A stretch of 34,326 nt of DNA, from contig JAGAOU010000036.1 of the NCBI GenBank assembly GCA_017623595.1, positions 1 to 34,326 of the forward strand, read 5' to 3'. Position numbers and translations under genes: made by a program. Each line of letters begins with the position of its first letter. The stretch's first letter is position 1. Positions 1,480 to 27,441 of the stretch are shown in pieces. This stretch comes from Clostridia bacterium. Lineage in GTDB: Bacteria > Bacillota > Clostridia > Oscillospirales > UBA644. The notes beneath the pieces were generated by a model, which was not told where the DNA came from, made no database searches, and saw only the letters and a program-made list of their open reading frames with translations.

Positions 1480-4400
1480 TTATTCTGTGATTTCGCCGTC
1501 TTTGGAGCGCGTCCGCACCGGCATTGCGTAAACCGATCTTCCTCCACCGTGGAGGGGATAGAGATCGGGGAAGAGGGTGTACTTCAAAAGGTAGATGGCA
1601 TCGTCGCTGTTCAGAGTACCGTTTCCGTCAAAGTCCGAGGTCTGATTGATGGGATACATCTCGGGGAACAGGGTATGCTTCAGCAGATAAATGGCATCGT
1701 CACTGTCCACCTCGGTGTCCCCCATGACATCCCCCGGTACATAGGAGGGCAGGCGATCCACATAGTTGTCCTTATAACTGCTTCCGCAACTGCGGCAGGT
1801 GTGGAGGGTGTACCCTTCCGCATCCGTGGTGGGGGGCACCACGGTGTGGGTATAACGGTGCCCCGTGGCGGGGATTTCGCTGTAAGTCGAATGATCGCAG
1901 CGCGAGCAGGTTTCGTAAGCATTCCAGCCGATGTCCGTGCAGGTGGCGGGCTTCGCTACATGCTGAGTCAAATCATGGCTGAGGGCGGGCAATTCCTTGT
2001 AGGTGGAATGATCGCAACGAGAGCAGGTCTCGTATGCGTTCCAGCCGATGTCCGTGCAGGTGGCGGGTTTCGCAGCGTGATTCGTCAAATCATGCCCGAG
2101 GGCGGGCAATTCCTTGTAGGTGGAAAGGTCGCAACGGGAACAGGTCTCGTATGCATCCCACCCGATGCCCGTACAGGTGGCGGGCTTCGCAGCGTGATTT
2201 GTCAAATCATGGCCGAGGGCACTGATACTGCGGGTTTCGAAGTGATCGCAACGCTGACAGTCACGGTGCTCGGTGCCCGTTTCGGTGCAGGTGGGTGCTT
2301 TCGTCCGTGCCCATGTGCCAAAATTGTGGGACAGTGCAGGAACGACCTCCTGTGCAACAAGGATCTCTCCGCACCCGGAACACTTCTGCCCCTCGGTCAA
2401 GCCGGTGGTAGTGCAAGTTGGGAGTACAGCAGGAAGCACAGTAACATCCCATCTGTTATGATCGTGTGTCAGCGCGGCCACGGGCGTGGTTTCAAAACAA
2501 TCGCAGTTCACACAGTCGCGGCGCTTTTCGCCTTGAGCCGCCTCGGTGGAAGCCTTCGTCACGTACCAATCATCAAAATTGTGACCTGTAGCGTTGACAT
2601 AACTATCAACGTAGGTGTCACCGCAGTGGCAGGTGTGGGTAGTGTACCCCTGCGCAGTGCAGGTGGGCGCCGTCACCTTGTGGGTATAGTTATGGCCTGC
2701 GGCGGGGATTTCGCTATAGGTGGAATGGTCGCAACGGGAGCATGTCTCGTATGCGTTCCAGCCGATGTCCGTGCAGGTGGCGGGCTTCGCAGCGTGCTGG
2801 GTTAAGGCATGCCCGAGGGCAGGCTCCAGTTCTGCGGTACAAACGGTGCAATGCTGCGCCTCGGTGCAGGTCGCCGCTGCGCCGGGGGTGTGTCCCGTGG
2901 CGGGGACAAAGGCGTCGGTATAACTTTCGCCGCAGACGGCGCAGGTGTGCGTTGTGTAACCTTCCGCGGTGCAGGTTGGCGGGGTGACAACGGAGGTGTA
3001 AGAGTGCGTACAGCCACCTTCCATCACGGCAATATATGCAATAGACGCATTCGTAAAGCCGTGTGTATCGGTACCCATATAGGGAAAGACAAAATCTTTG
3101 CCCGAGAGCCAATCGGAAGTGGTACTTTGGTCTTTTGTTCCGATGTAGTAGTGGGTCATGGCTCCGATTTCGTTGCCGTCCACAAAAAGATAGATCCTGT
3201 TAGAGCCATCGGAGGCGATACGATTTTCCAGTCGGTAGGTATGCAGCTCGGTCCAATCAATGCCGTGGTCTCCCAAGGCAATGCCGTAATTATGGCTGCC
3301 GGAGGAGGTCTTTTCGCCCATGGCAACAATTCCGTTGGTATTGCTTTTGAAAATATAGCGAGCGTCATGCGAAGCGTTTACATCGGTGGAGGTAAAAATT
3401 CTCGCCCCGCTGCTGGAGCCGGAGTTTTGGAACGAGCCCTCACTCTGCCATTCCACAACCCAAGGCAGATTATGCAGAAGGACCACGGCATTTTCCAACG
3501 CATAACGGGTATTGCTGAAAACGCCGTCCACGGTGGTTCCCGCATTTTTCGTCAGCCCGTTTTCGCCGCGAATGCAAACGAGGTCGGACCCGTCAAACAC
3601 CCAGCGATAATTTTTCGGCGTATAAACCGATTTTGCGGTGATGGTCACATCTGCGGTAACCGCATCAATAATCACGGTGCCGTCGGCATAAGCGGTGTGG
3701 GTAATATCTTTCCCGCCCATGGTTACGGTCACCTTCAAGCCCATATCTGCCGCCGTAGTCAGATTCACAACATAACGATCGCCGTCGATAACAAGTTTGT
3801 CGTCGCCGTAATCCGCGGTCACGCCACTGAGATCCATGGAAACCTTATGGGTCTGCGCCGTATAAACCGTGTTTGCAAGCAATGCGGCCTTAAAGGCTTC
3901 CGTATATGCATCCATCCCCAGCTTGTTGGGATGCACTCTGCCATCGCCGATGTAGGTTGCAAAGCTTTCCATGGTGATGGCACTGCCGTAAATATCAACA
4001 ATATGCGCTCCGAAGTGCTCAACAACCTTCTTCAATTCCGCATTAAAGGATTGAATCAATGCGTCGGTACCATCTACCCGCTGGGAAATGTTCAGATAAT
4101 ACACTTCTGCATTGGGGTAACGCACCGAAATCTTATGAAGGACAATGGCGGCGGCCTCCAAAGAGGTTGCGGGAACCCCATAGGCGAACGTCCCGTCTCG
4201 GTTTTGGGTAATAAGAGAGGCATAATCGATGTTTGCAGTGCCCAAAGTATCCTTATAATACTGGAAATCATTGGTTCCCATCTGAATGGCAATGATGTCC
4301 GGTTCTTCCCCGGCGTTCTCGCCGGTATCATCGTGCAATTGCAGACAACGGTCCACATAAGCCCCAACCGTACCGTTTCTGGTATGTAGGAGAGACGACC

Positions 4401-7400
4401 CACTCCAGGAATTGTTCACCAACAACTGCAACCCCAAATCGTTGCAGGCCTGCATCCACCAGGTATCGGTCAATGTTACATCCGAAACTACGGCACTGGG
4501 ATAGTATATGGCATTGTTGCGGATCGTGGAATTGGTGGTGTCCGCCGCAACGCCATTGGACGTGCCGGCAAAGGTAGAAATGCTGGCGCCCAAAATAGAA
4601 AGGGTTCTTCCCTTCAGCGAAGGAACCGCCGCACCGCAACCGGAGCATATACCGTTTTTATAGGTATGCTTTCGTGTGGCGGGGACATAGGTATCCACGT
4701 AGGAGTCGCCGCAGACGGTGCAGGTGTGGGTGGTGTAGCCCTGCGCGGTACAGGTGGGCGGGGTGACGGTGGTTTGATCGTTGTGCTCCCGATTCAGAAT
4801 ATAAAGCTCATTCTCATCGCTGTTGTTCCACATTGCGACATTTATAGCAATAGCGTTTTCTGGAGCAATAAGGTAGCCGCCGTTGGCGCTGAATTCCGCA
4901 TAACATTCCGCAGGTGACATAGTCTTGACCACACCGTATGCGCTAAAGAAGGTGACACGGATACCATCGGAGGTAGCGTGTCCATTTTCTCCCGCCTTGC
5001 CAAAAGCGGTGGCAAAGATCTGATCGCGGGAATTTACGGGAATAGTCACAGAGCAGACGCTGCCAGAACTATAGACCGCCCAATTTATTCCGTTTGCAAA
5101 ATAATACTTATCGTGCACAAGAATGTTCCAGAGGTTGAGACCGGAGCAGACATTTTTCGGAAGATCTGAATAATGCTCTACAAGGTTATATTTCTGCCAT
5201 ACGCTTTCGATTTCCCTTATTTCGGTTTCACCGCATCCAGAGCAGATCCTCTCTTCGGACACAGGTTCTCCCTTTCCGGGAATTTCCTTCATTTCCCAAT
5301 CGGACCACAGGTGGACATGACTGTCCTTTCCGCAGATTCCGCAGATTCCGGAATTTGTATCGTGCGCACGGTCAAGCAGATAGATCTCGTTGTCATCGGA
5401 ATTGTTCCACATGGCAATATTCACCGCTGTCGTACCCTCGGGCGCCGTCAGATAACCGCCGTTGGCGGTAAATTCCGAGTAACATTCCGCGGGTGCCAGC
5501 GTTTTTGCCACACCGTACTCACTGAAAAAGGTAACCCGGATGCCATTGGCGGTGGCGTGTCCGTTCTCCACCGCTTTGCCAAAGGCAGTGGCAAAGATCC
5601 GTTCACCGGGATTTACGGGAATGGTCACCGAGTAGACATTGCCGGAGCTGTGAATGCCCCAGTTGGTGCCAGTGGAATAGAAATATGAGTCGTGAGGTAG
5701 AACATTCCACAAATTCAGTCCGCAGCAGATTTCTTTCGGCAACTCGCTCAAGTGCTCCTCGTAGTGAGCTCCTGGCGCTGCCTTTGCCACGTGAACCGTC
5801 TTTCCTCCAACGGTCAGGGTTCCCTCGACCTGGGCATCAACCGCCAGCAGGTCATAGTAGTCCCAGCTCAGGCCCTCGGAAAGTTCATAGGTCTCTTCCT
5901 TGGACTTCCATATGGGATACACCTTAGGCACCACCAGCGTACCGCTGTGACCTGTGGTGGACGCAGTAATCCCCGCAACCTCGGTATAGCCGTCCCAGCT
6001 GATGAGTTTCATCTCGGGTTCGACCTCCGGCGCTTCGATTTCGCCAAGCATGATCAGGGCATTGCGGACAGCTTCCCGGCCATACTCATTGTAGCCGATC
6101 TGGTCGTAATGGACGGAATCATGGACCGCCGCGGGGGTGGTTGGAGTGTACCAGCTTTCTTTCTGGGTCACCTGCGTGGTATAGTCCACCCTGCCGTTGG
6201 GGTAATGTGTCTGGAAGTAGGTACTGACCCCGTTGGTGCCGTCGGGCATCCATACCCAGTCATCACCGATATCACATACACCCCAAATATCGGGCAGCTC
6301 GGGGTTATTGATCATCCAGTACTGTGCCACACGTGGACCGCTAAATCGCAGGTCCACAAAGGACTCATGATATGCATAGGAGTTAGTAATGGAATACACA
6401 CCGTCGCGGTAGCAAGCCGCAGTACTGCCTACCCGCACAGGAATGATGCCACCAAACTCGAAGGTCTTGTCCGCAGTATTGGGATTGGTGTCATGGTCAA
6501 AGGACATTTCCGACTTGAGACCTTCATGCATGGTAAGATACTTGTCTACATACCACTGGGCAGACTGTGCACGGTCGCTGCAGCCCTGACACCAGAAGTA
6601 AGCCATATGAGATAGGGTAAAATGTCCCGCGGCAATTTCCTTTCGCAGTGTTTCCTGACAGGCGGTAAACAGAGCCCGGCATTGCTCGTACTCCGTTGTG
6701 CCCGGCTGCCAAACGTTGATGCTGGTGCCGCCGTGGGCTGCGTTGACCACCCAGACCTTCTCCCCGGTCTGGCGCACCCATTCATAGGCGAAGCCACTGT
6801 CAGGGCCGATCTTGCCGGCACCGGCTTCTGTCAGAGAATACACCGGGTATCCGCTCAGACAGTCCGTGGTACCTATGGTATTGATGTTACGATATTCACC
6901 GGTCAAGGCGCTGGGCACAAAGTGCGCGGCATTTGATACCGTCATGGCGATGTTGTCTGCGCCGCGGTCATCGCCATAAGTAGAATACACCATGCCGTCC
7001 GGACAGATGATAGACTGGTTAGCGTTGCCCTCACTACCACGCATATTGCTCTGGCCGATGAGCAGGAGCAAGCTGATAGGGGCAGGCTCGACAGTCACCT
7101 CGTACAAAACACCATCAATCTTTACGGTGGCATTGCCGATACCTGTCGCAATAAGTGTATCGCCCTGTAAAGAAACAACTGCAGAATCTCGCACCGAGTT
7201 TTCTGCTACGCCATAACCAACCTGATAAGAGGTGGGGGTGCCCGCATTGGCGATCTCTACGCTCTTTCCGCTCACATCGTAATAATCGTCATAATGTAGA
7301 GAAATCTTGTTGGGGTTCTCCGCACCGCAGGCGGTGCAGATGCCGTTTTTATAGTTATGCCCTGTGGCGGAAACGTAGGAGTCCACATAACTGTCGCCGC

Positions 7401-9822
7401 AGGGGCAGGTGTGGGTGGTGTAGCCCTGCGCGGTGCAGGTTGGCGGGGTGACGGTGGAGGTGTAGGCGTGGGTGGAAACGTAGCTCAGGCCGTTGTTCAC
7501 TGCATAGGAGCGTCCTGCCGTTCCGCAGGTTACATACAAAACCGCCTTTGGGCAGTTTTCAAAATTTTCTTTGTCTATGGTGGTTACGGATGCGGGAATG
7601 ACCACCTTGGTCAGATTCGGCGCATTGCGGACGGCAATCCAATCCAGGGTGCGAACCCCTTCCTTCATCGTGATGACGGTAAGGTTTTGACAGTAATCAA
7701 AGGCCTGCTGACCGATGGACCGCACATTCCCGGGGATGGTGACGGAAATCAGTTTGTCGCAGTTAAAAAACGCAGTAGAACCGATGCTGCCCACGGTGGA
7801 AGGGATGTCGATCGACGCCAGTTGGATGCAATCGTCAAACAGGCCGTTGGGGATGCTTGTCAGTTTGCTCGGCAAGACCACCGATTTCAACGCCTTGCAG
7901 CCCGCAAAGGTGTATCCCTCCAAAAAGACCGACTCGTTTTGGAAGGTGACGCCGGTGAGAGTGGTGCAGTTTCGGAAGGCGCTGTCGCCGATATAAGTAA
8001 TGTTTTGGGGGAAGGTGACGCTCTTCAGAAACGGGCACCAGCTGAAGGCGTAATCATCGATTTTTGTGAGGGTGGACGGGAAGGTGACGGCCGTCACATC
8101 GCTTTCCCGAAAGGCATCGTAATCCACATAAACCGTTCCCTCCGGAATCACATAGCTGCCGTATCTGGCGGCGGGATAGCAGATCAGATGGGTGCCGTCT
8201 GCGGTGTAGAGAACGCCGTTCACCGATTTGTAAGCGGGATTTCCCGCCTCCACATAAATATTCTGCAGAGAGGTGCATCCGGCAAAGCAGGCCGTTCCCA
8301 AAGAGGTTACTTTTGCGGGAAGGGTGATTTGACGGATGCCGCTGTTCATGAAAGCGGTGTCCTGAATGGACGTAATGCTCTCGGGGAGCACCACGGTTCT
8401 CAGGTTGCGATCGCCGAAGAAAATGCTGTTTGGGACACTTGTCATCCCCGCAGACAAGGTGACGGAGGTCAGCGCAGAGCAGTTGGAGAAGGCACTGCTC
8501 CCCACCGTTGTGACGGAATCCGGCAGGACGATGCTTTTCAGGGCGGTACATTCCGAAAAACCGCAGGACTCTATGATCCGCAGATGCTTCGGCAGGGTAA
8601 TGGCCTGCAAGGATCTGAGGTTGTTGAATCCGTATTGTCGAATGGCCACAAGGCTGTCCGGGAGCGTCACTTGGGTGCAGTTTTTGCACCAGTAGAAGGC
8701 GCGCTCGCCTACCTCCGTAATCCCTTCCCCAACCACAATGGCGGTGACACTGTCACGGTATGCCTTCCAGGGAGCGTCGGTATAACGGTAACTTGGAATT
8801 GCCCCCGACCCGTTCACTGTCAGGGTACCGGTGTCGCCGTCCAAGACCCATTGAATCTTACTGCCGATGGTTCCGGATGCCGTTACGTTCTGCACATAGG
8901 GCAATTCCGCCATGGGATACAGCGCATGAAAGGCCTCCGTGTCAAACTTCTCGGAGCGGTAATGATGGGGAAAATCCTGCCCGGAAACGAGAAAATACCG
9001 ATAAACGTTGATCATTCCCAAATCCCAAGTGGGATCCATGTGGTAATACTTTCCCTCCAGACAAACAATGTTCCATGCGTGATTTTCCTGCTCCGTCTGA
9101 CCGGCAACCCCCGAAATGTAACGGCAATCCACTCCAAGCTCCAGAGAAAGCCTGTAATAGAGAGAGGCAATTCCCTGACAAACCGCCGTTTTGGTCATAA
9201 CCGCCGCATGGGTGGAGTGCTTATAAAGGTCCTCGGAGGTTGTATCATCCCAATCGTAATCGTAGGTAATGTTTTCGGTGATCCAATCGTAAATACCCTT
9301 TACCTTGTCATAATCCGAGGCATCCCAAAGATTCAGCTCATTCAAAATCTCAGAAACCGCGGCGTCAACCTGAACCTCCTGCCGTGCACCGGGCAACCAT
9401 TCGATGGCAAAGGAGACGTCGGTGTAAGCGCCGTCCTCGTCCGTGCCGGAAACGGAGGAAAAGGTGCATTGGATCAGGTTTGCAAGAATGTAATCCCCCT
9501 CTTTGGGGTTCCCCGTGTGGCGGGTGGCGATTTCAAAGAGTTGTGTATAGCAGTCGCTTGCAAAGCTGCCCCGCATGCGCAGAGAGACAAAGGTCTCCCT
9601 TGCGACCAACTGTTCCCGCAGATATGCGCCGCCGTCTTCCAAGGATTCAAACCCATTTGTGGGCGCGGAGGCACTTTTGGCAAGGGACGCCCGATATTCA
9701 AAGGCAACACCGCCTTTGTCGTAGGGCACGTCTTCTTTCGCCGCCGCTTCCACGGTCCACGGGTTACACCAGAAGCAGAACAAAACCAACAGGATTCCCA
9801 AAATGAAACGCAACTTTTTCAT
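1480..9822 (-). CDS. Giant secreted multidomain esterase/adhesin with C-terminal dockerin
   Basis: About 2780 residues; numbers below count from an ATG two codons upstream. In order: signal peptide; transglutaminase-like domain with C217, H250 and D265 as triad; BspA-type leucine-rich repeats (about 320-775); a CxxC repeat; a sialate O-acetylesterase/CE6-like SGNH domain (about 920-1255) with GQSNMRG (S927) and DSVH (H1240); two copies of a roughly 120-residue beta-sandwich-like module; a second, unrelated GDSL/SGNH domain (about 1744-1980; S1749, GTND, H1966); a ConA-like domain (about 2075-2272); about ten CxxC repeats; and a dockerin with two calcium loops, GDVMGDTEVDSDD and DFDGNGTLNSDD. 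The protein is probably extracellular, acting on acetylated glycans. I chose the second ATG (9822) because AAGGGTGG lies 7 nt before it but only 1 nt before the first (9828). It heads an operon with the cohesin-like gene. Substrates cannot be read from sequence. Confidence 0.9.
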   Translation of the reverse strand: MKKLRFILGILLVLFCFWCNPWTVEAAAKEDVPYDKGGVAFEYRASLAKSASAPTNGFESLEDGGAYLREQLVARETFVSLRMRGSFASDCYTQLFEIATRHTGNPKEGDYILANLIQCTFSSVSGTDEDGAYTDVSFAIEWLPGARQEVQVDAAVSEILNELNLWDASDYDKVKGIYDWITENITYDYDWDDTTSEDLYKHSTHAAVMTKTAVCQGIASLYYRLSLELGVDCRYISGVAGQTEQENHAWNIVCLEGKYYHMDPTWDLGMINVYRYFLVSGQDFPHHYRSEKFDTEAFHALYPMAELPYVQNVTASGTIGSKIQWVLDGDTGTLTVNGSGAIPSYRYTDAPWKAYRDSVTAIVVGEGITEVGERAFYWCKNCTQVTLPDSLVAIRQYGFNNLRSLQAITLPKHLRIIESCGFSECTALKSIVLPDSVTTVGSSAFSNCSALTSVTLSAGMTSVPNSIFFGDRNLRTVVLPESITSIQDTAFMNSGIRQITLPAKVTSLGTACFAGCTSLQNIYVEAGNPAYKSVNGVLYTADGTHLICYPAARYGSYVIPEGTVYVDYDAFRESDVTAVTFPSTLTKIDDYAFSWCPFLKSVTFPQNITYIGDSAFRNCTTLTGVTFQNESVFLEGYTFAGCKALKSVVLPSKLTSIPNGLFDDCIQLASIDIPSTVGSIGSTAFFNCDKLISVTIPGNVRSIGQQAFDYCQNLTVITMKEGVRTLDWIAVRNAPNLTKVVIPASVTTIDKENFENCPKAVLYVTCGTAGRSYAVNNGLSYVSTHAYTSTVTPPTCTAQGYTTHTCPCGDSYVDSYVSATGHNYKNGICTACGAENPNKISLHYDDYYDVSGKSVEIANAGTPTSYQVGYGVAENSVRDSAVVSLQGDTLIATGIGNATVKIDGVLYEVTVEPAPISLLLLIGQSNMRGSEGNANQSIICPDGMVYSTYGDDRGADNIAMTVSNAAHFVPSALTGEYRNINTIGTTDCLSGYPVYSLTEAGAGKIGPDSGFAYEWVRQTGEKVWVVNAAHGGTSINVWQPGTTEYEQCRALFTACQETLRKEIAAGHFTLSHMAYFWCQGCSDRAQSAQWYVDKYLTMHEGLKSEMSFDHDTNPNTADKTFEFGGIIPVRVGSTAACYRDGVYSITNSYAYHESFVDLRFSGPRVAQYWMINNPELPDIWGVCDIGDDWVWMPDGTNGVSTYFQTHYPNGRVDYTTQVTQKESWYTPTTPAAVHDSVHYDQIGYNEYGREAVRNALIMLGEIEAPEVEPEMKLISWDGYTEVAGITASTTGHSGTLVVPKVYPIWKSKEETYELSEGLSWDYYDLLAVDAQVEGTLTVGGKTVHVAKAAPGAHYEEHLSELPKEICCGLNLWNVLPHDSYFYSTGTNWGIHSSGNVYSVTIPVNPGERIFATAFGKAVENGHATANGIRVTFFSEYGVAKTLAPAECYSEFTANGGYLTAPEGTTAVNIAMWNNSDDNEIYLLDRAHDTNSGICGICGKDSHVHLWSDWEMKEIPGKGEPVSEERICSGCGETEIREIESVWQKYNLVEHYSDLPKNVCSGLNLWNILVHDKYYFANGINWAVYSSGSVCSVTIPVNSRDQIFATAFGKAGENGHATSDGIRVTFFSAYGVVKTMSPAECYAEFSANGGYLIAPENAIAINVAMWNNSDENELYILNREHNDQTTVTPPTCTAQGYTTHTCTVCGDSYVDTYVPATRKHTYKNGICSGCGAAVPSLKGRTLSILGASISTFAGTSNGVAADTTNSTIRNNAIYYPSAVVSDVTLTDTWWMQACNDLGLQLLVNNSWSGSSLLHTRNGTVGAYVDRCLQLHDDTGENAGEEPDIIAIQMGTNDFQYYKDTLGTANIDYASLITQNRDGTFAYGVPATSLEAAAIVLHKISVRYPNAEVYYLNISQRVDGTDALIQSFNAELKKVVEHFGAHIVDIYGSAITMESFATYIGDGRVHPNKLGMDAYTEAFKAALLANTVYTAQTHKVSMDLSGVTADYGDDKLVIDGDRYVVNLTTAADMGLKVTVTMGGKDITHTAYADGTVIIDAVTADVTITAKSVYTPKNYRWVFDGSDLVCIRGENGLTKNAGTTVDGVFSNTRYALENAVVLLHNLPWVVEWQSEGSFQNSGSSSGARIFTSTDVNASHDARYIFKSNTNGIVAMGEKTSSGSHNYGIALGDHGIDWTELHTYRLENRIASDGSNRIYLFVDGNEIGAMTHYYIGTKDQSTTSDWLSGKDFVFPYMGTDTHGFTNASIAYIAVMEGGCTHSYTSVVTPPTCTAEGYTTHTCAVCGESYTDAFVPATGHTPGAAATCTEAQHCTVCTAELEPALGHALTQHAAKPATCTDIGWNAYETCSRCDHSTYSEIPAAGHNYTHKVTAPTCTAQGYTTHTCHCGDTYVDSYVNATGHNFDDWYVTKASTEAAQGEKRRDCVNCDCFETTPVAALTHDHNRWDVTVLPAVLPTCTTTGLTEGQKCSGCGEILVAQEVVPALSHNFGTWARTKAPTCTETGTEHRDCQRCDHFETRSISALGHDLTNHAAKPATCTGIGWDAYETCSRCDLSTYKELPALGHDLTNHAAKPATCTDIGWNAYETCSRCDHSTYKELPALSHDLTQHVAKPATCTDIGWNAYETCSRCDHSTYSEIPATGHRYTHTVVPPTTDAEGYTLHTCRSCGSSYKDNYVDRLPSYVPGDVMGDTEVDSDDAIYLLKHTLFPEMYPINQTSDFDGNGTLNSDDAIYLLKYTLFPDLYPLHGGGRSVYAMPVRTRSKDGEITE
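1880..2225 (-). repeat. 117-bp tandem repeats inside the giant gene
   Basis: Near-identical units coding for about 39 residues (each with KPATCT and YETCSRCD) recur with a period of exactly 117 bp; for example, the shared ccgatg starts at 1928, 2045 and 2162. A further close copy lies near 2762. They form the most uniform part of the CxxC array and look like recent unit duplication. Confidence 0.85.
4780..5750 (-). repeat. Duplicated ~120-residue module in the giant gene
   Basis: Two coding blocks, about 5375-5745 and 4785-5155, encode closely similar modules. Both share GLNLWN, SVTIPVN, IFATAFGKA, NGHAT, GIRVTFF, PAECY, ANGGYL and AMWNNSD. The spacer between them carries CGICG and CSGCG pairs. 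The pattern suggests an internal duplication of a beta-sandwich-type (possibly carbohydrate-binding) module; the fold is inferred. Confidence 0.8.
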
Positions 9823-9908
9823 ACCCATTCCACCCTTGCAGAGTTCTTATTATCCGTAACAGCCTTGCGGCAAGCATCCGATCGACTTCAAATTCTTCCG
9901 GAAAGAAT

Positions 9909-20900: not shown

Positions 20901-22250
20901 TCACTCCGCTTTGCGGAAGTCCTCCCCGTGCAGGACGATGAGAATATCCTCCTCCACCTTGGTGTGGGCGTTGACAAAGACCAGCACCTCCTCCTCCGTG
21001 CCGTCGGTGACGGTCAGCTGCCAGCAGAGCTTTTCCGAGCCGTCCCCACCGGGAAGGGAGACCAGATCGGTATCCACCACCGACAGTCCCTCCCGCAGCA
21101 CCGTGGCGGCCTCGGTGGCGGAAAGGGTGGTTTCGGAGGATCGGTCGGGCTTATGAGAGAGCAGATATTCCACTCCGTTCACCGTCAGAAGCTCTCCGTT
21201 GTCCAATGCCACCGTGGCGGTCACCCGATCGGCATAAATCAAAACACCGTTCTGCCGTGCCGCATAGGTGACGCTCACCGTGTTTTCCGCGCGGTTCCAT
21301 GCGATGGCCTCCATGTTGGGATAGCCCAGATCGGCCAATCCCTTCGTGCCCTTTGCCGCCGCATCCTCCACCGTCAGCTTGCTTTCGCTGACCGTCCGCG
21401 TGCGGTCAAATCCGTACACCTTGCCGCCTCCCAGGGTCACCGCCACCGCCTGCTCTCCCGCAGAAAATTCCGCAAAGGGGAAGGGGGTATCGTATCGTCC
21501 CGTCTCGGTCAGATCGCCCTCCGCCAGTCCCAGGGCTTCCGCCGCCGCTCGCTTCAGTACCCCGTCCGCCGCCGTGGGAAAGGTGTTCAGCCAGGAGGAG
21601 GTTCGGGTGGTGTGCCATGCGGAAAAATCCCCGTCATAAATCAACGGCTCGTCCCCCGAAAAGATTTCCTCCAAGGATTCGAATTCCGTCTTGTCCTGCC
21701 CCTCCTCTGAGGGAAGAAGCATCTGTTGCATTGTCTGATAATCGGGGTTTTCGTCCGCAATTTTCTCTGCCAGCGCAATTACCTCATCGGCCAGCTGACG
21801 GGACCGCAGAGCAAGGGTTTTCAGGGATTCCTCCTCCTGCAAGGTCAGATCCTCTCCCCGCACCTGCTTGCGGGCCATTTCCAGGGTGAATTCCCCCACC
21901 TGGTTCAGAAAGGTCTCGGTGCCCTGCAGGCGCAGATCATAGATGGGCAAGGTCTCCAATGCCGTCCGTGCTGCCCCCGCCTCGGCAAACACCCGTGCCG
22001 CCCAGGACACGGCTTGATATTCTCCCGAAGCATACAGCCCCTTCTGCAGATCGGTTTCCAGATCGGACAGTGCATCGGACAGCTCCGCCACGCTCAGCCG
22101 CCATCCCGCCGCCGTCTCGTTTTTCGTATCCTGCTCCGCACGGGTTCGCATCCGATCCAGACACAACACCGCCCCCGCCAGCGAAAGCACCAGCACAAAG
22201 GCCAAAAGGGAGAGAATGACCAGTGTCCTTTTTTTGATTTTCACATACAT
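20901..22250 (-). CDS. ypeB: Spore germination protein YpeB
   Basis: At 449 residues it has the family's usual length. It shows an N-terminal membrane segment (about 8-31), a helical region (about 40-190) and C-terminal PepSY-type repeats (about 230-445), with FPNMEAIAWNRAENT-like (LGYPNMEAIAW) and LTVNGVEYL elements. In Bacillus subtilis YpeB is needed for the spore cortex hydrolase SleB and is encoded with it. No sleB is present here: the upstream neighbour is a divergent WG-repeat gene and the downstream neighbour is mglB. AAAGGTGGT lies 6 nt before the ATG. Its presence implies an endospore former. Confidence 0.9.
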   Translation of the reverse strand: MYVKIKKRTLVILSLLAFVLVLSLAGAVLCLDRMRTRAEQDTKNETAAGWRLSVAELSDALSDLETDLQKGLYASGEYQAVSWAARVFAEAGAARTALETLPIYDLRLQGTETFLNQVGEFTLEMARKQVRGEDLTLQEEESLKTLALRSRQLADEVIALAEKIADENPDYQTMQQMLLPSEEGQDKTEFESLEEIFSGDEPLIYDGDFSAWHTTRTSSWLNTFPTAADGVLKRAAAEALGLAEGDLTETGRYDTPFPFAEFSAGEQAVAVTLGGGKVYGFDRTRTVSESKLTVEDAAAKGTKGLADLGYPNMEAIAWNRAENTVSVTYAARQNGVLIYADRVTATVALDNGELLTVNGVEYLLSHKPDRSSETTLSATEAATVLREGLSVVDTDLVSLPGGDGSEKLCWQLTVTDGTEEEVLVFVNAHTKVEEDILIVLHGEDFRKAE

Positions 22251-22362
22251 TATATTACCACCTTTTTGTCGCAGAAGGGCTCATGCCCGTCTTTTTTTTC
22301 TCATTTTCCCCAAATTGGAGAAAAAATATGCGGAAAAAGCCATTCGCAACCCACTTTTGCTC

Positions 22363-22398
22363 TTGCTTTTTTTGAAATTTTGTGGTATTATATATAAT
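22363..22398 (+). promoter_or_regulatory. Promoter region of the WG-repeat gene
   Basis: TTGCTT (22363-22368) and TATTAT (22386-22391) are 17 nt apart. An overlapping alternative is TTGAAA (22372-22377) with TATAAT (22393-22398) at 15 nt. Either would start the transcript just before the AAGGAG that serves the ATG at 22426. Confidence 0.65.
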
Positions 22399-22425
22399 GT
22401 ATTATTATCCTCTAAGGAGAGAGTT

Positions 22426-23598
22426 ATGAGCAAAAAGCGTTTTTTCATCATTTCGGGGGCTGCCCTGCTGATCGTTGCCGCCCTTGCGGCGTGGATCGTG
22501 ATTTCCAATCTTGGGCTGAAGACCGTGGACAATGAATACCTGATGACCCTTCCCGGGGAATGGGAAGGTGCGAAGGATTTTTCCGAGGGTCTGGCGGCGG
22601 TGAAGATCGACGGAAAATGGGGGTACATTGACACCGAGGGAAATTTGGTGGTCAAGGCCATTTACGACGGCGCTTATAATTATTCGGAGGGCTTGGCCGC
22701 CGTGCGCAAGGACGGCCGCTGGGGCTACATCGACAAGGAGGGCAATATTGTGATCGCCTTCCAGTTTGATACCACCTATGCCTTCTCCGAGGGTATGGCG
22801 GTCTACGGACAGGGGAACTATTACGGATACATCAACAACAAGGGGGAAAAGGTGATCCCCGCCGATTACTCCGAAGCCACCTCCTTTCGGGAAGGGGTCG
22901 CCTGTGTGAAGAAGAACTCCTCCTACGGGTTTATTGACAAAAACGGAAACGCCGTCACGGAGATCACCTACGGTGCCTCCTCCAAGGTCTCTGAGGGGTT
23001 GATTGCCGTGTTTTCCGACGCAGGGGTGGAAGCCCTGAAGTCGGGATTCATCGACACGGCGGGCAAGGTGGTCCTTGAGCCCGCATGGTATGACGTGAAG
23101 CCCTTCTCCCAAGGCCTTGCCGCCGCCCAGAAGGAAGCATTTACCACTCCCTGGGGATTCATTGATCGGGAAGGGAAGACCGTTATCGAAGGAGACTGGG
23201 ACTTTGTGGAATCCTTTGCGGGAGATCGGGCGGTGGTCCATGATCAAACGGGCTATTATTTCATTGATATGACGGGCAAAACCGTCTCAAAGGCTTACGG
23301 GAAGGCCTATTCCTTCACCCCCGCAGGGCTTGCTCGGGTGGCGACTGCCAACGGTGCGGCCTGGAACTTCGGATTTATCGACAAGAACGGCAATGAGGTT
23401 ATCGGTCTGCGCTATGAAGGGGCGCGGGACTTCTACAACGGAGCCGCCGCCGTGAAGGACGGGGGAGACTGGGGTTTTGTGAAGGCCGACGGCACGGAGC
23501 TGTGCGATTTTCTCTGGGATGAGACGGGAGATTTCTCGGAAGAGGGCATCGCCCGCATCCAGAACGGAGACGTGCACGGCTTTGTGAAGCTGAAATAA
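22426..23598 (+). CDS. Membrane-anchored WG-repeat protein
   Basis: This 390-residue protein has an N-terminal membrane anchor (about 5-28) and then about seven WG repeats. Each carries a form of WGYID(K/T)EGN followed by a YDxAxxFSEGLAAV segment, which is typical of WG beta-propeller-like proteins. It is probably exposed outside the cell. No enzymatic motif is visible and the role of such proteins is not established. AAGGAG lies 6 nt before the ATG; upstream in-frame ATGs lack this. ddl follows after 21 nt, so the two are likely cotranscribed. Confidence 0.88.
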   Translation: MSKKRFFIISGAALLIVAALAAWIVISNLGLKTVDNEYLMTLPGEWEGAKDFSEGLAAVKIDGKWGYIDTEGNLVVKAIYDGAYNYSEGLAAVRKDGRWGYIDKEGNIVIAFQFDTTYAFSEGMAVYGQGNYYGYINNKGEKVIPADYSEATSFREGVACVKKNSSYGFIDKNGNAVTEITYGASSKVSEGLIAVFSDAGVEALKSGFIDTAGKVVLEPAWYDVKPFSQGLAAAQKEAFTTPWGFIDREGKTVIEGDWDFVESFAGDRAVVHDQTGYYFIDMTGKTVSKAYGKAYSFTPAGLARVATANGAAWNFGFIDKNGNEVIGLRYEGARDFYNGAAAVKDGGDWGFVKADGTELCDFLWDETGDFSEEGIARIQNGDVHGFVKLK

Positions 23599-23619: not shown

Positions 23620-24657
23620 ATGAATATTGTGGTGCTTGCGGGAGGATATTCTCCCGAACGGGATGTTTCCCTTTCTTCGGGAAGCCTGATTGCCAATTCG
23701 TTGATGCGGTCGGGACATCGGGTTCTTTTGGTGGATGCCTTTTTGGGAATGGAGATCGACGAGGGTGTGAACCCCCATACCTTGTTCCGTTCTTTGGGGG
23801 ATGCGGAATATTCCTACACCATCCCCGAGGTCGCTCCCGACATGGAAGCATTGAAAAAACTGGCCTATCGGGGATCGCTGGTGGGGCATAATGTATTGCG
23901 TCTCTGCCGTGCGGCGGATATCGTTTTCATGGCTCTGCACGGGGCTATGGGAGAAAACGGGCAGATGCAGGCCATTTTGGAGGCGGAGAATATCCGCTTC
24001 ACCGGGTCCACTCATGTGGGATGTGTTCTTGCCATGGACAAAGACATCACCAAAAAGCTCTTGGCGGCGGAGGGAATTCCCGTGGCCAAGGGGCTGACGC
24101 TGGATTTGCGCAAGGAATCCCTTCCCGACGAGCATCCCATGCCCTGTGTTGTCAAGCCCTGCTCCTGCGGCTCCAGCGTGGGTATTTCCATCGTCCATGA
24201 CGAGGCGGAATTGCAGCAGGCCATCGGGGAGGCGAAAAAATACGAGGATCTGATCCTTGTGGAGGAGAAGATCCCCGGACGGGAATTCTCCGTGGGAATT
24301 TTGGACGGAAAGGCTTTGCCCCCCATTGAAATCATCCCCAAATGCGGTTTTTATGATTATAAAAATAAATATCAGGCGGGTGCCACCGAGGAAATCTGCC
24401 CCGCACAACTGACTGCCGAGGAAAGGGCGCGCATCGGGGAATTGGCGGAAAAGGTGGCGCGGGTTCTGCGTTTGGGTACCTACTGCCGTATCGACTTTAT
24501 CCTCCACGAAACCGAGCATGAATTCTACTGCCTGGAGGCGAATACCCTGCCGGGCATGACCCCCAACAGTCTCCTTCCCCAAGAAGCACGGGCGGCGGGC
24601 ATCGGCTATGACGAGCTCTGCGAAACCATCGTGCGCCTGTCCCCTGAGGTGGAGTGA
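23620..24657 (+). CDS. ddl: D-alanine--D-alanine ligase
   Basis: This 345-residue ATP-grasp enzyme makes the D-Ala-D-Ala dipeptide for peptidoglycan. Key features are the N-terminal LAGGYSPERDVSL, ALHGAMGENGQMQAILE, the ATP-grasp segment KPCSCGSSVGISIV, EEKIPGREFSVGIL, and the C-terminal EANTLPGMTPNSLLP. The tyrosine/phenylalanine choice that marks vancomycin-resistance ligases was not resolved. It lies 21 nt after the WG-repeat gene, with AAGGAG 11 nt from the ATG. A hairpin repeat follows the stop. Confidence 0.93.
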   Translation: MNIVVLAGGYSPERDVSLSSGSLIANSLMRSGHRVLLVDAFLGMEIDEGVNPHTLFRSLGDAEYSYTIPEVAPDMEALKKLAYRGSLVGHNVLRLCRAADIVFMALHGAMGENGQMQAILEAENIRFTGSTHVGCVLAMDKDITKKLLAAEGIPVAKGLTLDLRKESLPDEHPMPCVVKPCSCGSSVGISIVHDEAELQQAIGEAKKYEDLILVEEKIPGREFSVGILDGKALPPIEIIPKCGFYDYKNKYQAGATEEICPAQLTAEERARIGELAEKVARVLRLGTYCRIDFILHETEHEFYCLEANTLPGMTPNSLLPQEARAAGIGYDELCETIVRLSPEVE

Positions 24658-24779: not shown

Positions 24780-26171
24780 ATGTACGCAAGTTTACGGTTT
24801 CCCACGGCTCCCGCAGAGGAATTTGAATATGAGCTCACGGAGGACATGCTGCCCTTCCTGAGCAAGTGTGCCCTTTCCGAGGAAGAGCGGAGGGCGGCGA
24901 TGCGCTTTTTGCGTCGGGTTTGTCCCGCGGAAGAGGTGTTGGCCTACCGTGGGCAGGTGGGAGCGGAATTGTTGTCCTCTCCCCAATTGCAACGAGTGTT
25001 TTCCGACCTGGCGCGGTTGGGACGGAATTTTCCCGCAGGAATTCCTCAACGAGAGGTGGATCAACTGCGTACCCTGGCACGGTTTGAGACCTTTGCGGCG
25101 GAGTTCGACGAATTCTGCAAGACCCTGCAGGGTATCATCCCCGAAAGTGACGGGGCAAAGCGGTGCCTTCGGTTTTTGAAGCTTTATGAGGAAAGCTTTG
25201 AATATAAAGAATTGAAGCACAAGGCCATGGACCTCATCCATGCCTTCGGTTTTGACGACGGCGTTGCCCTTTCGGTTGGGAGTCCCAACGAGGAGGGGAT
25301 CTCCCGTCTCTTCCGCAATGACCCCTCCGACGGCATTGATGCGTCGGTGCTTCGGGTCATGAAGGAATTTGACATCACTCCGCCCCAAGAGACAGTCCCC
25401 CCGCCTCGGGATTATACCGACACCGAGGCCGCCGTGCTGACGGGCATGATTCGGGGCAAGAGCGAGCTGGGACGGCGCATGGAGGAATTTTTTGCCCTCT
25501 ATACCGCCTGCGGCACGCAGGACATTCTGCGCCTCTGCGACGAGGCCTATTGTTTCTCGGTGATGAACAAAATCTACACCCAAGGATGCGCTATGGGATA
25601 TGGGGTTTGTTGCCCAACCTATCTTCCTATGGGCTTTTATACCGAACTGACCGACCTTTACTATCCCACCGAGCAGGGGGATTGCGCACGGGCGGATTAT
25701 ATCGCGTCCCCCCTCAACCATATCACCTTGGTCTGCGGCCCCGATTCGGAGGCTTATCTTAACTCCGTTGCTATGGCCCATGTTTTTGCCTCAGCGGGAG
25801 GTCTGGTCTTCGCCGAAAGCGCCCGAATTTCTCCCATCGACCGACCCGAGCGGGATCGTAAGGAGCAGATCAACATCACAAATCTCAACGAGCACAGCCT
25901 CTGTCTATGCGCTCACCTGTTTGACGTCATGCTTCCCCGTCAGGAGGAAGCGGCGGTCAGCGAGGTCATCCGTCAGCTTTCCGAGCGCACCGTGCGAAGC
26001 GTTGTGCGCATTTGCTCCAAGAGCAATCTGACCGCCCTGGAAAAGCAGATGGAAAAGGGCTCTCTTCCTTCCTGCACCCTCCTGCAGGCGGGTACCGACC
26101 GCACCCTGGAGGATCTGTTGAAGCGGCATAATCTGACCGCAGAAGAATTGGAGGGCAACCGCAATGACTGA
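24780..26171 (+). CDS. MutS-like protein with eroded ATPase motifs (first of a pair)
   Basis: This 463-residue protein resembles the MutS core and ATPase (domains III-V) without the mismatch-binding N-terminal domain. The match is clearest around residues 315-350: TLVCGPDSEAYLNSVAMAHV and then AGGLVFAESARISPID follow the MutS pattern GPNxxGKST...AGxxVPAxxARIxxxD. The P-loop is lost: at 320-329 it reads GPDSEAYLNS, with Y326 at the lysine position. The Walker B equivalent is LCLCAH, with A378 and H379 instead of Asp-Glu. ATP hydrolysis is therefore unlikely. The family assignment is inferred by eye. GAGG lies 5 nt before the ATG. It overlaps the next gene by 8 nt. Confidence 0.6.
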   Translation: MYASLRFPTAPAEEFEYELTEDMLPFLSKCALSEEERRAAMRFLRRVCPAEEVLAYRGQVGAELLSSPQLQRVFSDLARLGRNFPAGIPQREVDQLRTLARFETFAAEFDEFCKTLQGIIPESDGAKRCLRFLKLYEESFEYKELKHKAMDLIHAFGFDDGVALSVGSPNEEGISRLFRNDPSDGIDASVLRVMKEFDITPPQETVPPPRDYTDTEAAVLTGMIRGKSELGRRMEEFFALYTACGTQDILRLCDEAYCFSVMNKIYTQGCAMGYGVCCPTYLPMGFYTELTDLYYPTEQGDCARADYIASPLNHITLVCGPDSEAYLNSVAMAHVFASAGGLVFAESARISPIDRPERDRKEQINITNLNEHSLCLCAHLFDVMLPRQEEAAVSEVIRQLSERTVRSVVRICSKSNLTALEKQMEKGSLPSCTLLQAGTDRTLEDLLKRHNLTAEELEGNRND

Positions 26172-27441
26172 TATTTCTCCCCGTTTCAGCCTTCTTTTTG
26201 CCGATCCCAAGGGAACAAAAGAGGAATTTTACCCCCCCGAGACCATGGATTTTATCGGAGATCTGCCCTGCGAGGACAGCGCTCTGATGCGGGAGATTCT
26301 GTCCCGCAAAACCACCCGAAAGGACATTGCCTTCCGCAAGGAGATTCTGGAGGATTTCCTCCAATCGCCCACCCTTCTGACCAAAACCGAAGGGGTCTTG
26401 CAGCGCTGGGAGGGCTTGTACGAAACCGCCCGTCGGGAATCTCTGCCCACAGCGGACATGCCCTGGGAGCAAGGGCTGGAGGTGTTGAAGGACAACGCCT
26501 TGAGTCTGATGGAGCATCTGCGCTTTTTGCGCCGCGCCCACGATGAAATGGCGGATCAGACCCCGGACTCCGAGGGAATGTTCGCCTTTACCGAATATCT
26601 GCGCCGCCACGGCAACTCCGAAGGGGTGAAGACCCTGACCGAGCAGATCGCCGCCTATCCGTTGCTCCGCGCCGAGCAGACCAAGGTGGTGCTGCATCTG
26701 GGGCTGGATCGCTACGGCATGAAGCAGAAGGCTCTGCTCACCTATCTGGGCACCGAGGACGGAAAATATCTGAAAAAGCATCCCCTGCGGCGGGAGGATT
26801 TCTCGGTTAACCTGCCCAAGGAAAACGCCCCGCAGTTGACGGCGGAGGCCATCGGGTCGCTCTGTCGCTCCTTCCGCACCCTCACCGCAGGGATCCGTGC
26901 CGCCTTTGTGCCCCTGCGGGAAGGCATGGTGTTCTATCATTTTGCTTTATCAATCACCGAATGGGCCCGCTCCAAGGGCTATGCATGGCGTTATGCCTCC
27001 CCCGTTGCGGAGCACGGACCCGCAGGACGGGGGATCCGCAACCCCGCCGAGCCTGCCGACGGCGTTTACCGACCCCCGCTGACCTGCACTGCCCGACCCT
27101 TGGAGGCCTATCGGGGAGAGTGGGGCACGGAAACCTTGAAAATTCTTGCCCGCACTCAGATTTTTTCCACCGCAGGCCTGCCCGTGGTGGCGGAGGACTT
27201 GGTTTTCTGCCCCGAGGAGCGAATTTTGGTTTATGATTCGGCTGATAAAACGGTGGAAACCGAAATCGAAGCCCTTGCCGCCTTGTACCGTAAAACCCGA
27301 CGGGGCGACATTTTACTGTTGAACCAACCCCTGATCACCGTGGGAAATTCCCCTGCAACGGAGATCATCGGCAATCTTTTGCGCGCCTTCCACAAAAAAG
27401 GAGCCGCCGTTCGGCTCGCCACCGACCTTTCGGTCGATTGA
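26164..27441 (+). CDS. MutS-like protein with eroded ATPase motifs (second of a pair)
   Basis: This 425-residue protein has the same apparent layout as its upstream partner. AGLPVVAEDLVFCPEERI fits the MutS segment after the P-loop. The P-loop itself reads GEWGTET (318-324), without the catalytic lysine. The later ILLLNQPLITVGNSPATEII (N387, Q388) aligns with MutS Walker B LLLDELGRGTxxxEG, giving Asp to Asn and Glu to Gln changes. The tail HKKGAAVRLATDLSVD fits GAxxxxATHxxEL. Its ATG lies inside the end of the first gene, with GGAGG 9 nt upstream, so expression is likely coupled and the two may form a heterodimer. Function is unknown. Confidence 0.6.
   Translation: MTDISPRFSLLFADPKGTKEEFYPPETMDFIGDLPCEDSALMREILSRKTTRKDIAFRKEILEDFLQSPTLLTKTEGVLQRWEGLYETARRESLPTADMPWEQGLEVLKDNALSLMEHLRFLRRAHDEMADQTPDSEGMFAFTEYLRRHGNSEGVKTLTEQIAAYPLLRAEQTKVVLHLGLDRYGMKQKALLTYLGTEDGKYLKKHPLRREDFSVNLPKENAPQLTAEAIGSLCRSFRTLTAGIRAAFVPLREGMVFYHFALSITEWARSKGYAWRYASPVAEHGPAGRGIRNPAEPADGVYRPPLTCTARPLEAYRGEWGTETLKILARTQIFSTAGLPVVAEDLVFCPEERILVYDSADKTVETEIEALAALYRKTRRGDILLLNQPLITVGNSPATEIIGNLLRAFHKKGAAVRLATDLSVD

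Follow-up and report, generated by a model that had tools for sequence, protein, structure and literature searches.

Two overlapping genes, A and B, in a 34,326-nt stretch of DNA from an uncultured gut Clostridia bacterium (the window, analysed at its full length) encode MutS-like proteins whose ATP-binding motifs appear to have gone, which raises the question of whether the pair is decaying or has been kept for a task that needs no ATP. The ATPase domain is present in all MutS subfamilies and is their most conserved part (PMC12292046). A preliminary description, made from the sequence alone, had reported two adjacent frames of 463 and 425 residues with an 8-nt overlap, and had quoted the strings GPDSEAYLNS and LCLCAH from A and GEWGTET and LLLNQP from B; the frames were found exactly where it had placed them, and all four strings are present in the translations (Table 1).

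Table 1. Coordinates of genes A and B, of the remnants of their ATP sites and of the neighbouring genes in the window
Feature	Position (strand)	Description	Evidence
Gene A	24780..26171 (+)	463 aa; MutS domain III-like core, domain V remnant and C-terminal tail	ORF, orthologues, hhalign, Foldseek, VIA-align
P-loop remnant of A, GPDSEAYLN	25737..25763 (+)	3 residues shorter than intact GANGGGKTSYLR	alignments; GKT Lys kept in 0/5
Walker B remnant of A, LCLCAH	25899..25916 (+)	Asn-Glu of intact relatives gone	alignments; Asn and Glu kept in 0/5
Overlap of A end and B start, 8 nt	26164..26171 (+)	possible translational coupling	coordinates; overlap of 4-8 nt also in G001, G002, G004 and G007
Gene B	26164..27441 (+)	425 aa, MutS-like, ATP-dead; stops just past the former H-loop	ORF, orthologues, hhalign, Foldseek, VIA-align
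P-loop remnant of B, GEWGTETLK	27115..27141 (+)	3 residues shorter than intact GNNGSGKTVFLR	alignments; GxxxxGKT in no B
Walker B remnant of B, LLLNQP	27313..27330 (+)	Glu replaced by Gln	alignments
WG-repeat protein, 5' of ddl	22216..23598 (+)	context; ORF taken from the first start codon	PF14903, E 2.3e-84
ddl (D-Ala-D-Ala ligase)	23620..24657 (+)	context; constant upstream neighbour	Pfam
Beta-helix protein with N-terminal hydrophobic segment	27451..30060 (+)	context; downstream neighbour within the genus	Pfam

Neither A nor B gave a relevant match to Pfam or NCBIfam, even at an E value of 1, and the Pfam MutS_V model matched none of the orthologues scanned. Because no family model matched A or B directly, kinship to MutS was tested through their relatives. 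Intact tandem MutS_V genes were found as distant relatives within the same family (Pfam E values of 1e-12 to 1e-16, above the PF00488 cut-off), with further intact MutS_V relatives, as tandem pairs or single genes, in families outside it within the same order and class. In hhalign comparisons B matched intact B proteins with an E value of 4.5e-35 and intact A proteins with 4e-17, and A matched intact A proteins with 1.4e-22 and intact B proteins with 1.3e-14; the stronger score on its own side indicates that each window protein belongs to one side of an older pair. A profile of the intact B proteins also retrieved MutS from the PDB sequences, and profile A2 gave no MutS match in the same collection.

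The phylogenetic tree revealed that the A and B proteins of tandem pairs form two separate groups, with window A placed in the A clade (support 95/91), window B in the B clade (99/98) and the ATP-dead proteins (hereafter dead) in clades supported at 100/100 on each side. A topology in which all ten dead proteins were forced into one clade was rejected (p-AU 0.0025), so that both partners of a pre-existing pair lost their ATP sites, with no later copying of one of them. Recent duplication of a single dead gene, considered as an alternative origin, is ruled out by the same AU test.

AlphaFold gave a fair model for B (pLDDT 78.7, pTM 0.76) and a weaker one for A (68.7 and 0.66), the latter with pLDDT mostly below 50 from residue 355 onward. 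As the C-terminal third of A is of low confidence, the fold of its former ATPase domain is supported more by homology than by the prediction. Searched against the PDB with Foldseek, both models retrieved only MutS, MSH or MutS2 structures among the best 50 matches listed (best E values of 7.4e-08 for B and 3.9e-08 for A). VIA-align superposed B with a Z score of 19.3 over 356 residues (r.m.s. deviation 7.9), covering the MutS core and ATPase regions, and A with a Z score of 17.2 over 281 residues (r.m.s. deviation 4.1). The structural matches start at approximately MutS residue 259, implying that the mismatch-recognition domain I and the connector domain II are absent; examined as possible MutS1 proteins, A and B lack both domains and are just 425-463 aa long. 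Structure prediction of each protein, proposed in the preliminary description as a check, thus returned a MutS core and ATPase fold for both, weakly so for the C-terminal third of A. The reading that the two proteins are unrelated to MutS and resemble it by chance, which the missing Pfam and NCBIfam matches would favour, retains virtually no probability against these hhalign values and the MutS structures at the top of the Foldseek results, and is ruled out by profiles and structure alike. Taken together, orthologues, intact relatives, profiles, tree and structure support the kinship first proposed from the quoted strings, and A and B belong to the MutS superfamily by descent and fold.

Alignment with the intact relatives confirmed that the ATP motifs are lost in both partners and revealed a loss that extends beyond the P-loop and Walker B changes originally noted, including a P-loop shorter by three residues, a shortened signature segment and the absence of the H-loop histidine. 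P-loop length was counted between two anchors, the first glycine of the loop and the Ala-Gly or Ser-Gly that is conserved past the next helix; two MAFFT runs position the P-loop of B differently, so that the gap columns are uncertain while the anchor-to-anchor residue count is firm. Across the five genomes that carry the pair, GxxxxGKT occurs in none of the ten dead proteins, the H-loop histidine is likewise kept in 0/10, and the conserved glycine of the signature segment is lost from all ten, with the segment itself shortened. The Walker B glutamate is missing from nine of the ten, including both window proteins, the exception being the B protein of G007 (LFLDEPL), whose P-loop region reads GPRAKTELN. 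The AKT of this protein may be a relic of GKT, and its persistence together with LFLDEPL indicates that the loss there was stepwise. The Walker residues of the P-loop are missing from all orthologues (10/10), and the Walker B glutamate from all but this one protein. Judged by its motifs, the pair fails every ATPase test (Walker A, Walker B, H-loop and signature).

The first P-loop glycine is kept in the alignment in all ten dead proteins, and a number of positions that are conserved in the intact relatives and lie outside the ATP site are retained in every copy, namely Pro57, Arg102, Cys314 and Asp346 in the five A proteins and Arg61, Asp67, Ser145, Phe268, Phe277 and Tyr278 in the five B proteins (reference numbering).

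A search of 59 related genomes identified full-length orthologues of both A and B in three further genomes of the same genus (G001, G002 and G004), at 46-62% identity with A and B of the window, and in one genome of another genus of the same family (G007), at 27-29% identity. An alignment scan of GTDB contigs returned the same four orthologue records again. All belong to Clostridia metagenome-assembled genomes (MAGs), of which three derive from the gut of water deer and cattle; when genome contigs were scanned with a single protein, there was no match. The samples comprised one genome per species, a subset of the matches was inspected, and all sequences are from MAGs. When profiles were searched against samples of the order and class, no dead pair turned up beyond the family, and those class-level matches that were inspected keep the P-loop. 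The preliminary description had allowed that close relatives with intact motifs would mark this copy as one in decay; every orthologue is dead, and those relatives that are intact belong to separate, older lineages.

In each of the five pair-bearing genomes A overlaps B and ddl lies directly upstream. The position of the pair between ddl and mnmE had been put forward as an argument for its retention, and only half of this holds: ddl is a conserved neighbour, joined within the genus by the beta-helix gene behind B, and mnmE is not a constant one. One congener, G003, has ddl and the beta-helix gene approximately 30-50 nt apart with neither A nor B between them. Since the ddl of G003 is closest to that of the pair-bearing G002, and the outgroup G007 has the pair, G003 probably lost A and B together, and joint loss of both genes is the most likely explanation of its locus.

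The wider surroundings show further regularities. A WG-repeat-like gene also lies upstream of ddl in G001, G002, G003 and G007. A gene for the spore germination protein YpeB (window positions 20901-22250, minus strand) lies near the WG-repeat gene and the ddl operon, and the YpeB/WG-repeat arrangement around ddl is similar in G001, G002 and G003. The ddl proteins of the genus and of G007 are 68-84% identical to one another and only approximately 30% identical to the best match from any other genus of the family; it looks as though this ddl had been swapped for another type. Elsewhere in the window (1480-9828, minus strand) a 2782-aa protein combines a transglutaminase-like core and BspA-type leucine-rich repeats with a sialic-acid-specific acetylesterase-type domain and GDSL lipase-like domains.

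Divergence within the genus bears directly on whether the pair is being retained or eroded. Between the window and G001, pN/pS was 0.313/0.623 (0.50) for A and 0.259/0.612 (0.42) for B; ratios within the genus are approximately 0.4-0.6 and can be read only roughly, as synonymous sites are near saturation. Nonsynonymous change was below synonymous change and third codon positions differed most in all pairs compared, and inside the genus the former ATPase half is conserved at least as well as the N-terminal half. Were A and B pseudogenes, with function gone along with the ATP sites and the pair now eroding, their faster evolution would be accounted for (dN between the window and G001 is 0.40 and 0.32 for the pair and 0.12 for ddl, approximately 3-fold faster at nonsynonymous sites), as would their absence from G003. 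Against this stand ten frames in five genomes that lack internal stops, at identities of 27-62% with A and B of the window, and that stay open across approximately 50% amino acid divergence. That every orthologue shows nearly identical motif losses speaks for an old event with conservation thereafter, and both genes have been removed cleanly in G003. The pN/pS values, the well conserved former ATPase half and the open frames make decay very unlikely. The argument of the preliminary description that the pair has been retained, and is not simply decaying, is thus borne out by open frames in five genomes, by orthologues and by pN/pS below 1.

Two further readings accept that the pair is functional and differ in what it would do. 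In one, A and B would still bind a nucleotide or another ligand in an altered pocket and work as a ligand-driven switch; the former P-loop region is conserved inside the clade, with its first glycine in every copy, the Asp preceding the domain is kept in all five A proteins, and the AKT and LFLDEPL of the G007 B protein would allow a residual nucleotide contact in that one case. The shortening of the P-loop by three residues in both partners, and the absence of both GxxxxGKT and the H-loop histidine from all ten proteins, weigh heavily enough against such a switch that we regard it as improbable. Somewhat better placed, though still unlikely, is an ATP-free clamp on nucleic acid or the ribosome, resembling MutS2 without its power stroke. 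It draws on the best structural matches, which are the core and ATPase regions of MutS and MutS2, including the ribosome-bound MutS2 of Bacillus subtilis, and is opposed by the lack of any SMR or KOW domain in the Pfam search and by the clamp-like segment itself, which is short, in which no conserved basic patch was found, and which is acidic in the A proteins of the window and G001.

The possibility that the pair serves as the dead partner of an active paralogue was also considered. In G001, G002, G004 and G007, genomes that are 71-96% complete, the search found no second small MutS-like pair, and a dead pair without such a companion in four genomes would not be a simple inhibitor or completer of an active paralogue there, which makes this role unlikely. 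The window genome also encodes a separate 882-aa MutS1 and a 786-aa MutS2-type protein. A defence system was rejected as well, PADLOC having matched neither window protein and having given no more than weak P-loop matches for their intact relatives.

Among known proteins, MutS2 (TIGR01069; PDB codes 7qv3 and 7vuf) shares the core and ATPase fold and has no mismatch-recognition domain, but it is an active ATPase of approximately 790 aa, whereas A and B lack ATP motifs, are two different subunits and give no SMR or KOW match. MutS1 and the MSH2/MSH3 and MSH2/MSH6 complexes share domains III and V with the pair, which differs from them in lacking domains I and II and the ATP motifs; a two-gene A/B heterodimer would parallel MSH2/MSH3. 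KamC (NF052383), a MutS-like ATPase of 508 aa, has a role away from DNA according to the name of its NCBIfam model alone, and no paper on its reactivase role was found in the literature searched. Membership of KamC was rejected: the window proteins do not match NF052383, and their intact relatives match its ATPase region at 44-82 bits against a cut-off of 300, being outscored by MutS1 and MutS2, with nothing over the cut-off in 13 genomes.

A further close comparison is with the intact tandem MutS_V pairs of Clostridia (for example L020, L081, L084 and L086), which have the same A-then-B order and a similar size but, unlike the window pair, keep the P-loop, Walker B and H-loop. No family name was found for these intact pairs. 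In four genomes of the family (G000, the window genome, on contig C71; G005; G011; and G014) the intact pair adjoins a protein of 178-210 aa with one hydrophobic segment, as judged by eye, at L019 3262-3807, L082 9030-9590, L020 11468-12004 and L080 9191-9823. A search of the family found this small protein in G000, G005, G011, G013, G014 and G016 and not in G001, G002, G004 and G007, all of which have the dead pair only; it matched no Pfam or NCBIfam model.

Several of these relatives depart from the intact pattern or from the tandem arrangement. The second small pair of the window genome (C71, L080 6346-9823), beside the small membrane protein, combines an intact A (GANGGGKT) with a B that reads GKNSGDKT, in which Asp replaces the Gly before the Lys. 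In G419 (L179, 21-1295 and 1384-2826) the A protein keeps its P-loop (GQIGTGKT) and has no recognisable Walker B, and the B protein keeps both; the pair is possibly a one-sided intermediate. Intact MutS_V proteins of 531-588 aa encoded by single genes are widespread in the other families of the order (L087-L099, for example L092 6331-7953), and no NCBIfam model exceeded its cut-off for those of L087 and L092.

The explanation that we favour, and consider probable, is that A and B form a heterodimer derived from an older pair of small MutS-like ATPases, in which both ATP sites were lost and the two genes kept as a unit. The ancestor would have been a bacterial pair of small MutS-like ATPases, each with core domain III and ATPase domain V and without mismatch-recognition or connector domains. 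In one lineage, which comprises the genus of the window and one or more further genera of its family, both partners would then have lost the residues for ATP binding and hydrolysis, and purifying selection would since have retained the pair as a unit. The old split between A and B, their adjacency in every pair-bearing genome and their joint absence from one congener argue strongly for a heterodimer, and we infer that the subunits would pair through their former ATPase domains. The complex would be held in one fixed, ATP-free conformation and may act on a protein or nucleic acid partner, either as a scaffold or as a clamp. That the ATP sites have been lost while the pair stays under selection indicates that it probably has a job for which ATP is not needed. 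The best reading is thus an obligate, nucleotide-independent MutS-like heterodimer that would serve as a scaffold.

A more specific version of this proposal is put forward tentatively, as possible but doubtful: that both subunits are permanently free of ATP and have taken on a new role outside repair, possibly linked to the cell envelope, having arisen from the little-described tandem MutS-like pairs. The suggestion of an envelope link comes from the fixed place of the pair behind the D-Ala-D-Ala ligase gene. A role directed at protein is thinkable by analogy, given that NCBIfam names the small MutS-like ATPase KamC a lysine 5,6-aminomutase reactivase.

Neither an ATP-dead MutS pair nor tandem MutS-like pairs were found described in the literature searched, which covered few subscription papers. 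A pair that is under selection without ATP function in either partner constitutes a natural experiment on the MutS scaffold minus ATP, and the gradient among its relatives, from intact pairs through pairs with one partner changed (A in G419, B on C71) to dead pairs, makes the question testable. Bacterial MutS proteins are typically homodimers (PMC12292046). In contrast with this usual description of bacterial MutS, the present data suggest that Clostridia commonly encode MutS-like ATPases in tandem, probably as heterodimers.
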